A DNA stretch of 64,000 nt from Gammaproteobacteria bacterium (GTDB lineage Bacteria; Pseudomonadota; Gammaproteobacteria; SZUA-152): contig JAVVEP010000006.1 of the NCBI GenBank assembly GCA_032250735.1, forward strand, positions 1-64,000. The letters run 5' to 3'. A program made the position numbers and the translations under genes. Below are positions 28,162 through 30,834 of this stretch, in pieces (positions within the stretch are counted from its first letter, which is position 1; every line of letters begins with the position of its first letter). Below the pieces are notes generated by a model, which did no database searches, had not been told where the DNA came from, and was given only the letters and a program-made list of their open reading frames with translations.

Positions 28162-28734
28162 TTAAATACGCTCGGATAGCTTGTAATCCACATTAATAAA
28201 AGCGCCAATATCGGCCAGAAAACGAATCGTTCTGGCGCCGAAACCCACCTCCGGACAGGTGTCATCCTTATCGACAGACAGCACCAGTTCCACGCCAATT
28301 CTGGGCGATAAGTTGTGGCTTTTAGCCACCGCAATAATCTTATCCTTGACCGGTTCCAGTTGCTTAATGATGATCTCCGTCAATTTATAAACATCGACTT
28401 CGTCAGTGCCGCATTCCGCAGAAACAATATCGGTCGATAACTCCCATGAGCTGATCACGGGTTTGTCCAATCCACTATTTGCCCCGGCAGCATTGATTGA
28501 GGTGGGCTCGATGCCAAGCAGGCGAGTGATGTCAGCGGGATTGAAATGATAACCACACAGGGCAAAGAAAGCCCTTCCTTTATTAGACGCCAAAATCTTT
28601 CCCTCGTAGATAGTGTTCTCGTTAATTAACGAGAAATATGACCGGCGATTATAGCGTATAGGCTGAATAGGTGCGGTGCGCTCATTGAAAATCACCTCAA
28701 TAGCGGCGGTGTCCTTTGTTATTGCTTGAGGCAC
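28162..28734 (-). CDS. DUF4279-like protein
   Basis: Up to 190 residues. The central part, ALCGYHFNPADITRLLGIEPT, is the opening strand-helix of the DUF4279 family, followed by SSWELST and the terminal alpha/beta part. The family function is unknown. The start is uncertain: the longest frame begins at a GTG at 28734, but the first 40 residues are not family-like and a later non-ATG start is possible. It lies alone on the minus strand, with a terminator close downstream, and is divergent from the tandem globin. Confidence 0.75.
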   Translation of the reverse strand: MPQAITKDTAAIEVIFNERTAPIQPIRYNRRSYFSLINENTIYEGKILASNKGRAFFALCGYHFNPADITRLLGIEPTSINAAGANSGLDKPVISSWELSTDIVSAECGTDEVDVYKLTEIIIKQLEPVKDKIIAVAKSHNLSPRIGVELVLSVDKDDTCPEVGFGARTIRFLADIGAFINVDYKLSERI

Positions 28735-28860
28735 AGTGCCTGGTCAGATTTCCGTAGAAACTGAGCAAATTGCTCGGCATTTAAGATGTATTTACAATGC
28801 ATCTTAGTGGGGTTAATATCCGCTTCGTTGTCTTTAAGTCGTATTTTGGAGGATGTGATG

Positions 28861-29661
28861 ATGGGTTTTCTCAAAAGTTTATTTGGTGGTGGTTCCAAGC
28901 CTGCGAGTCTATTTGACCGCATTGGCGGTGATGCTGCCGTAAATGCTGCAGTGGATATTTTTTATCGCAAGGTGCTGGCCGATGATCGTATCAACCAGTT
29001 CTTCGAAGGTGTGGATATGGACAAACAGGCCGCTAAACAAAAGGCCTTCCTGACCATGGCTTTTGGTGGACCGAATAATTACACCGGCGAAGATATGCGT
29101 AAAGGCCATGCGCACCTGGTCGCGAAGGGTATGAATGCCTCACATTTCGATGCCGTCATGGAAAATCTGGGCGCCACTCTGACTGAGCTGAACGTACCTG
29201 GCGATCTCATTGGTGAGGCTGCGGCCATTGCTGAAAGCGTGCGCGAACCCATATTGGCGGGTTATACCGACGAGGAGATGGCGGCGATGGCGGGCGGCAA
29301 ATCACTGTTTGATCGTATCGGCGGTGAGGCCGCGGTGAATGCCGCGGTGGATATCTTTTATCGCAAGGTGCTGGCCGATGATCGCATCAGTGCCTTTTTT
29401 GAAGGTGTGGATATGGACAAGCAGGCCGCTAAACAAAAGGCCTTCCTGACCATGGCCTTCGGTGGGCCGCACAATTACAGTGGCGAGGACATGCGTAGAG
29501 GCCATGCCCATCTGGTGGCGAAGGGTCTGAACGACAGTCACTTTGATGCGGTGATGGAGTGCCTCGGTGCGACATTGACCGAACTGAATGTGCCCGGTGA
29601 TCTGATTGCCGAGGCGGCGGCCATTGCCGAAAGCACGCGCAATGATGTGTTAGGTAAATAG
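28861..29661 (+). CDS. Tandem (two-domain) group I truncated hemoglobin
   Basis: A 266-residue protein made of two nearly identical truncated-globin domains with a period of 132 residues (396 bp): SLFDRIGGDAAVNAAVDIFY starts at residue 16 and its copy at 148. Each domain keeps the B10 Tyr in DIFYRKV (Tyr35, Tyr167) and the proximal His in MRKGHAHLV / MRRGHAHLV (His83, His215), so each should bind heme. A short Gly-rich leader (GFLKSLFGGGSKPA) precedes the first. GGAGG eight bases upstream decides the ATG at 28861. O2/NO binding or NO dioxygenation is the family role. A terminator follows. Confidence 0.93.
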   Translation: MGFLKSLFGGGSKPASLFDRIGGDAAVNAAVDIFYRKVLADDRINQFFEGVDMDKQAAKQKAFLTMAFGGPNNYTGEDMRKGHAHLVAKGMNASHFDAVMENLGATLTELNVPGDLIGEAAAIAESVREPILAGYTDEEMAAMAGGKSLFDRIGGEAAVNAAVDIFYRKVLADDRISAFFEGVDMDKQAAKQKAFLTMAFGGPHNYSGEDMRRGHAHLVAKGLNDSHFDAVMECLGATLTELNVPGDLIAEAAAIAESTRNDVLGK

Positions 29662-29679: not shown

Positions 29680-29706
29680 AAAAGGGGCCGTGCGGCCCCT
29701 TTTTTG
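29680..29706. terminator. Bidirectional terminator after the globin gene
   Basis: AAAAGGGGCCG and CGGCCCCTTTT pair around a two-base loop and are flanked by A and T runs. It serves the globin gene and the convergent double-thioredoxin gene. Confidence 0.93.
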
Positions 29707-29739: not shown

Positions 29740-30834
29740 TTAGCGGTTGTGCCGCTGCCGCCAGAGCTGGAAGTTGGGCTCGGCGAGATAGCCCTTCGAT
29801 AACACGTAATGCAGGACATTGTTGAGCCGGTAAAAGCCGACCACGGAATCGATGCGGATGATTTCTTTGCCGTGCTCATCAAAGAAAATCAGTGTGGGTG
29901 TGTAATACAGCCCGAGATCATCCGCCCACTGTCTGGCTGTTGTTCGCTTGCCGCCGGGTGTGAGCACAGGGGTGTCGGAGAGAAGGTCGAGCTGCACGGA
30001 TTCCAGCTGTGTCATGGTGTGCAGGATGGTGGTGTTACGCAGTGGTCCGCTGTGGAGCAGGTCGCAGGCGTGGCAGCGAGGCTTTTCGAAAAACACCACC
30101 AGTGGCATCTGGGAGGGGAACAGTGAACGATCCAGGCCATAAGGAGGCGCGGTGAAGATGCTGTTGCGATTGAGCGTGTCCTTGCCGTACTCGGAGAAAG
30201 AGGCGGCACGGGACAGATAGGTTTTGAACTTCGCGGTCTGGTAGTGATGGTCTGCCACAAATTCGAGCGCGGCGACAAACTGATAGGGCGGATGGTAGCC
30301 GGAAAGACGGAGGGTTTCCCTGCCTTCCGGGTCATAGAATATCAGGGTGGGTGTGAAATTCGCCTTATTGGCAATGGCGAAGTCTTTTTCGGTCCGGTAG
30401 ACGGTTCCCTGGACATCCGCTACCGGTCGATCGCCACGCACGTCGATGGCAACGACATCAAAATGCTTGCGGGTGTAGGCGACGATGAAGGGGTCCTGCC
30501 AGTTGTGTTCCAGATGCGCCTTGCAGTAGGCACAGTCTTTCTGGCCGAAGTAGACGATTAGCCCGCGCTTATTGCTGGTCGCGACGTCAGTGATGTCATT
30601 GCGCAGCTCGAGAAAGCTGAGCTTGAACCAGTCCGGCAGGGTTAGGTCGGTATCGAGTGGCTTGTCGTCGAACTCGAAGAAATCGGCATCGGGAATGTCG
30701 CCCAGTGAGCCTGGCGCTTCATCTGTTTCAAGAGTGGTTTGTACGGTAGTGGCTGCGAATGCGGTGCAGAACAGGCACGACAATAACAGCAGAGCCTGGA
30801 TGCATTGAATGATTGTTCGATCGTTTCGGCCCAT
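29740..30834 (-). CDS. Exported protein with two thioredoxin-like domains
   Basis: A 364-residue protein with an N-terminal signal segment (about residues 8-27, ending in AFA) and two thioredoxin folds in tandem. The first has the redox motif Cys101-AY-Cys104, the second Cys254-HA-Cys257; each is followed by a TPTLIF cis-proline loop. The first domain resembles SoxW / thioredoxin-fold proteins of sulfur oxidisers. A periplasmic dithiol-disulfide or thiol-reducing role is likely. It is the next gene downstream of sat on the same strand (205-base gap with a strong hairpin) and convergent with the globin gene. Confidence 0.85.
   Translation of the reverse strand: MGRNDRTIIQCIQALLLLSCLFCTAFAATTVQTTLETDEAPGSLGDIPDADFFEFDDKPLDTDLTLPDWFKLSFLELRNDITDVATSNKRGLIVYFGQKDCAYCKAHLEHNWQDPFIVAYTRKHFDVVAIDVRGDRPVADVQGTVYRTEKDFAIANKANFTPTLIFYDPEGRETLRLSGYHPPYQFVAALEFVADHHYQTAKFKTYLSRAASFSEYGKDTLNRNSIFTAPPYGLDRSLFPSQMPLVVFFEKPRCHACDLLHSGPLRNTTILHTMTQLESVQLDLLSDTPVLTPGGKRTTARQWADDLGLYYTPTLIFFDEHGKEIIRIDSVVGFYRLNNVLHYVLSKGYLAEPNFQLWRQRHNR

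Follow-up and report, generated by a model that had tools for sequence, protein, structure and literature searches.

A tandem group 1 truncated hemoglobin, probably NsrR-controlled and membrane-tethered, as a likely nitric oxide dioxygenase

Introduction

Many roles have been proposed for truncated globins, few of them with genomic evidence. Among the closest described systems, the glbN (cyanoglobin)-ferredoxin reductase operon of Legionella pneumophila is the predicted sole target of NsrR in that organism, and NO oxidation has been proposed for it (PMC1274295; repeated in PMC3820574). It combines a cyanoglobin-type TrHb1, an NsrR operator and a ferredoxin reductase as presumed electron donor, in the same layout as the single-domain paralogue of the genome described here; but the Legionella operon is described as pairing a lone globin gene with the reductase, whereas the gene studied here stands alone, has no adjoining reductase and encodes a tandem fusion whose N-terminus is predicted to bind membranes. 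For THB1 of Chlamydomonas reinhardtii (4xdi, 6cii), efficient NO dioxygenase activity is reported and Lys53, at position E10, is the proposed sixth ligand (PMC4439042). THB1 shares the TrHb1 fold, Tyr B10, Gln E7 and Lys E10 with the tandem globin, at 47-48% identity (fold match), but is single-domain, eukaryotic and tied to nitrogen assimilation, and no such N-terminal anchor has been described for it.

The cyanoglobin GlbN of Synechocystis and Nostoc (1s69, 1mwb, 2hz2) is the best of the closest PDB sequence matches, which further comprise Tetrahymena trHb and THB1; it has the same Tyr B10, Gln E7 and Gln E11, but a single domain and, in position E10, a His (His46 in Synechocystis) that is Lys in the tandem globin. 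Nostoc GlbN is reported as a peripheral membrane protein, according to the title of Hill 1996 as cited in PMC3820574. Mycobacterium tuberculosis HbN is an NO dioxygenase of the TrHb1 group that has a short extension at its N-terminus, the pre-A motif, which affects its function (PMC3493545) and may, according to Gardner, aid contact with the reductase (PMC3820574); it differs from the tandem globin in its lower identity (34-36%, fold match) and single domain, and pre-A is not established as a membrane anchor. The flavohemoglobin Hmp, finally, is an NsrR-controlled NO dioxygenase consisting of a globin plus an FAD/NAD reductase; there a globin of the 3/3 fold is fused to the reductase, whereas here the reductase is split off from globins of the 2/2 fold.

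Results and discussion

The tandem globin gene

The window, i.e. the whole 64,000-nucleotide stretch analysed here, carries a tandem TrHb1 gene on the forward strand (28858..29661), which starts at ATG 28858 or 28861 and encodes 266-267 residues; a Shine-Dalgarno sequence, GGAGG, is read from the sequence at 28848..28852 (+), 5 or 8 nt before the candidate start codons. Two globin domains, D1 (28906..29262, +) and D2 (29302..29658, +), are delimited by sequence comparison, PF01152 matches and a structure model, and are joined by a linker of 13 residues (29263..29301, +), whose pattern G[YF]TxEEKAA is kept in most relatives. A likely intrinsic terminator, AAAAGGGGCC-GTGC-GGCCCCTTTTTT, identified by eye at 29680..29705 (+), supports a monocistronic unit. 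The divergent neighbour (28162-28734, minus strand) encodes a DUF4279 protein of unknown function, and a gene for a thioredoxin-like-domain protein (29740-30834, minus strand) lies between the globin gene and sat, in the same order as in the congener locus L035.

The protein is a group 1 truncated hemoglobin of the TrHb1/cyanoglobin type by sequence and by its match to the 2/2 fold. Profile searches give two Bac_globin matches (PF01152, E 1.7e-38) in the plus-strand reading frame, and an NCBIfam profile search gave no globin family for the tandem protein. An AlphaFold2 model (pLDDT 83.5, pTM 0.50) contains two TrHb1 folds; in a fold search, a model domain superimposes on 3aq7 with a TM of about 0.92, and the best PDB matches are TrHb1. 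As the low pTM leaves the arrangement of the domains in the model uncertain, no heme-heme distance is claimed. The chain departs from the usual single-domain architecture of TrHb1 in having two domains, with family homology unaffected; the predicted fusion with two heme sites is supported.

The heme pocket is invariant in all 163 domains compared: Phe B9, Tyr B10, Phe CD1, Gln E7, Lys E10, Gln E11, Phe E14 and the proximal His F8. Both copies thus keep, as predicted, Tyr B10 (Y35 in D1, 28963..28965; Y167 in D2, 29359-29361; plus strand, as are all pocket codons) and His F8 (H83, 29107..29109; H215, 29503-29505). Lys E10 (K59, 29035..29037; K191, 29431-29433) is a possible ligand of the heme iron and may make O2 binding slower. 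The H16 position that serves covalent heme attachment in Synechocystis GlbN (His117) is occupied by Val in D1 and Thr in D2.

Age of the duplication

The two domains repeat with an exact period of 132 codons and are identical in 103/119 residues and 276/357 nucleotides, which bears out the head-to-tail repeat that had been described from the sequence. The accompanying observation of long, nearly identical stretches of DNA holds for two runs of 35 nt and 29 nt, but was overstated as a general description, since 45/119 codons differ synonymously. The longest run of identical codons, 11, is mildly unusual (permutation p about 0.017). With a dN of 0.11 and a dS of 1.41, the domains have been under strong purifying selection and do not stem from a recent event.

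D1 and D2 make the same synonymous codon choice in 55% of cases, no more often than either does in comparison with the single-domain paralogue, which is unlinked (53% and 56%); no homogenisation is thus seen in this genome, and on the strength of this control recent duplication or gene conversion is rejected here, contrary to the original prediction. In a weakly resolved domain tree (119 columns), D1 of the window groups with D1 of its relatives and D2 elsewhere, which points the same way. Synonymous agreement between domains is higher in two related genomes (85% in G005, 77-83% in G002), so recent duplication or conversion does occur elsewhere in the window's family. In the same tree, sister domains come together with starred support in several other proteins (e.g. 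L032, L041, L117), and with lower support in L034, L048, L050, L051 and L056.

A predicted N-terminal membrane anchor

The protein begins with a predicted cationic amphipathic helix, MGFLKSLFGGG (28861..28893, +), which we propose to be a membrane anchor. The same kind of element, e.g. MFGFLKKLFGGG or MFKAIMKMFGGG, with a hydrophobic moment of at least 0.55, starts every tandem protein from Gammaproteobacteria whose N-terminus is readable (25/25), and five further tandem proteins, from betaproteobacteria and Nitrospirota, have an N-terminal transmembrane helix instead. Counted after correction of start sites, predicted anchors are found in 30/30 tandem proteins with a readable N-terminus as against 12/94 single-domain genes, the latter including six second genes of Mariprofundus; single-domain proteins mostly start with MSD-SLF or similar. 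Residues 1-12 of the tandem protein have a pLDDT below 50 in the AlphaFold2 model; alternatively, the helix may contact another protein or remain disordered.

A conserved NsrR-type operator

Upstream of the gene lies a 23-bp imperfect palindrome, AAGATGTATTTACAATGCATCTT (28783..28805), with the core GATGTAT-N5-ATGCATC, which matches the published NsrR consensus gATGyAT-N5-ATrCATc (PMC1274295) without a mismatch. At up to three mismatches, 100 shuffles of the window yield no match; at up to two mismatches, the entire 3.43-Mb genome has only two places with NsrR boxes, and a reversed control has none. The start of the divergent DUF4279 gene is about 50 bp from the box. A possible sigma-70 promoter, TTTACA-17-TAATAT (28791..28819, +), overlaps the palindrome, which is suggestive of repression by overlap, although it matches at only 9/12 positions, a level expected 1.1 times per region by chance.

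In a promoter alignment of related globins, the NsrR-type box is a conserved block. Of the tandem genes, 29/31 are preceded by a box scoring at least 13/18, and of the single-domain genes 80/94 (4.7% and 4.5%, respectively, in dinucleotide shuffles); a box scoring at least 14/18 precedes 23/31 tandem genes versus 2/620 dinucleotide shuffles. In some lineages the operators are degenerate, and since the loci are related by descent, these and the other counts of loci are not independent. The genome encodes two Rrf2 proteins, of which one best fits NsrR (NF008240; 141 bits, below the equivalog cut-off of 182) and the other is IscR, above its cut-off. The tandem gene is best read as a solitary member of the NsrR regulon, its palindrome being the presumed binding site.

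The second place (G000:C4:29160-29219; L164/L168) holds two neighbouring NsrR-type boxes, downstream of which are encoded a multicopper oxidase, two c-type cytochromes and a NirK-like protein. This gene order presumably resembles that of the ncgABC-nirK operon of Nitrosomonas. The NirK-like protein scores 180 bits against NirK (TIGR02376), below the cut-off of 296; in Nitrosomonas, control of NirK by NsrR is known (PMC1274295). A COX1-family locus (L171) was considered as a possible NO reductase and was given no assignment.

The single-domain paralogue and its reductase

The genome has an unlinked single-domain paralogue (G000:C4:100105-100467), flanked by a divergent nsrR-like Rrf2 gene on one side and, on the strand of the globin, by a gene for a 2Fe-2S/FAD/NAD ferredoxin reductase on the other. 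In other genomes, the reductase adjoins 96/106 single-domain loci and NsrR is near 74/106, counts that include some duplicate loci. Of the 47 multi-domain loci tabulated, one from Nitrospirota and three zeta-like ones have an adjacent NsrR or reductase, and neither gene lies beside the tandem gene in the 43 gamma/beta loci (0/43); the electron donor of the tandem globin is therefore assumed. A profile search of the genome found no canonical Hmp above the cut-off.

Several further loci touch on this pair. At L013, L119-L123, L125, L126, L128 and L130-L137 a globin-ferredoxin reductase pair has no nsrR in the fetched flank, and several of these retain an NsrR-like box. On two plasmids of Methylocystis rosea (NZ_CP044330.1, NZ_CP034088.1), a TrHb1 that is 62% identical lies beside a 2Fe-2S domain protein, so the globin/reductase pair may be mobile. 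An 877-residue frame at G000:C29:16519-16902 (L175) matches the globin part of flavohemoglobin and is possibly a globin-coupled sensor.

Function

From these sequence features we infer NsrR binding, location, turnover and reductase pairing, and the tandem globin is probably an NsrR-controlled, membrane-tethered, two-heme TrHb1 acting as an NO dioxygenase. NO would destroy the Fe-S cluster of NsrR and free the operator at 28783-28805, allowing the globin to be made; the amphipathic N-terminus would keep it on the inner membrane, on its cytoplasmic side, a place where NO and O2 accumulate and where the respiratory oxidases would be poisoned by NO; and NO would react with the oxy-heme of the two-heme globin to yield nitrate. 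The electrons would probably come from the ferredoxin reductase beside the single-domain paralogue and nsrR, such that globin and reductase would form a "split flavohemoglobin", the genome having no canonical Hmp above the cut-off. One source of NO may be the cell's own NirK-like nitrite reductase, in the operon with the other NsrR-box place. NO removal, one of several options listed originally, is supported by the operator, the paralogue context and the invariant pocket; cooperativity, another, is not supported, and the simplest view of the extra domain is that it raises the number of catalytic hemes on each anchor.

Other roles fit less of this evidence. In a microaerophile, a membrane-held globin could gather O2, where it is scarce, for the cbb3 terminal oxidase: the relatives include microaerophilic iron and sulfur oxidisers such as Mariprofundus, Gallionella and Sideroxydans, the genome has ccoN, the protein has a predicted membrane anchor, and a genome paper on iron oxidisers suggested that trHbN works with a terminal oxidase (PMC3770913). 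Capture or delivery of O2 is nevertheless unlikely, as the operator is of the NsrR type, the single-domain form occurs with nsrR and ferredoxin reductase, the pocket of Tyr B10, Gln E7 and Gln E11 suggests slow release of O2 (PMC4720485), and an O2 carrier does not need a dedicated NADH-linked reductase. Rather improbable, too, is a role under NsrR control in other reactive nitrogen chemistry (reduction of nitrite or hydroxylamine, peroxynitrite) or in NO or redox sensing, with Lys E10 as sixth ligand. The invariance of this residue, the proposed role of the equivalent Lys as sixth ligand in THB1, and the inclusion of nitrite stress in the NsrR regulon (PMC1274295) speak for it, but efficient NO dioxygenase activity is reported for THB1, whose pocket is the same (PMC4439042), the reductase pairing fits turnover, and a signalling domain is absent.

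Sulfide or sulfite heme chemistry tied to the Apr, Sat and Soe proteins, which had been suggested as an option from the neighbourhood, is very improbable. The window does contain aprBA, sat and soeA-like genes within 12 kb of the globin gene, and inside the window's family aprA is found in 7/7 tandem versus 3/12 non-tandem genomes (Fisher p 0.003), a count that includes one partial match (G012) and in which 4/7 tandem genomes come from one genus; common descent or chance best accounts for this association. In tandem genomes outside the family, however, aprA and dsrA are each found in 0/7 and soxB in 1/7, the neighbours of tandem genes vary from lineage to lineage, no conserved operon partner adjoins the tandem gene in the gamma/beta loci, and the operator is of the NO type. 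Tandem fusions thus occur in genomes without sulfur genes, which by the refuting condition set originally largely disposes of the sulfur reading: on gene distribution and non-conserved neighbours the association is rejected, and the tandem globin is most likely not a sulfur-metabolism protein. That the tandem gene is an assembly artefact, or a chance duplication without functional meaning, is likewise very improbable, even with a draft genome in 61 contigs. Neither collapse nor stuttering of the assembly can account for copies as diverged as these, and their substitution pattern is that of purifying selection; many MAGs assembled independently contain orthologues with two or three domains, D1 groups with D1 of relatives, and a congener (L004/L035) has a tandem orthologue in the same order, HIT-globin-thioredoxin-like.

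Distribution and meaning of the tandem form

Described originally as uncommon, the tandem form is rare in a broad sample, yet recurrent: among 369 evenly sampled Gammaproteobacteria, a close TrHb1 match is present in 67 genomes and a tandem one in 9, and beyond these it recurs in Beta- and Zetaproteobacteria and in one Nitrospirota MAG. Many MAGs have two-domain orthologues, and three-domain ones are encoded at L008/L052, L036, L041, L043, L051 and L054. A single-domain paralogue is also present in 11/14 tandem genomes. In Zetaproteobacteria, a soluble globin gene adjoins one whose product has a transmembrane N-terminus, and in G474 and G588, which are taken as zeta from their likeness to named Mariprofundus loci, the anchored member is itself a tandem. 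Anchored single-domain forms occur in the beta and zeta lineages, so anchoring probably preceded duplication there. No description of tandem or multi-domain bacterial truncated globins was found in the open literature, although subscription papers may hold one; the Legionella glbN-ferredoxin reductase pair under NsrR is already known, and what would be new is the anchored tandem form.

The probable NO dioxygenase of the window may belong to a widespread, undescribed class of membrane-tethered TrHb1 in chemolithotrophs, a generalisation for which we see about even chances. Anchors, amphipathic or transmembrane, would have arisen more than once, and the anchored copy would later have been multiplied, giving chains of two and three hemes in Gamma-, Beta- and Zetaproteobacteria and a Nitrospirota lineage. 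Such proteins would act as an NO-destroying layer on the inner membrane and protect the respiratory oxidases, beside a soluble single-domain copy with reductase under NsrR. The conserved NO-sensor operator, the reductase partner of the single-domain form and the invariant pocket point to one role, and the repeated anchors and two or three globin units suggest that the place and number of hemes matter. Why an NO dioxygenase should be placed at the membrane thus becomes a directly testable question. The findings also link NO defence to microaerophiles that oxidise iron and sulfur and that either produce NO or encounter it.

The zetaproteobacterial "300-aa frames" were considered as fusions and rejected, being adjacent genes split by a stop codon. 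In Zetaproteobacteria and look-alikes (L058-L066, L138, L140-L156), the soluble and transmembrane-anchored TrHb1 genes are adjacent, the second often in frame just past the stop of the first, with the ferredoxin reductase next and nsrR divergent. The Nitrospirae locus L056 (JACRHL010000019.1, 4661-5744) has a tandem TrHb1 with a transmembrane N-terminus between divergent nsrR and a ferredoxin reductase gene, and is the only fetched non-zeta locus with the tandem form inside the operon. At G013:C69:46234-46644, the match of a single-domain TrHb1 reads through one TGA stop.
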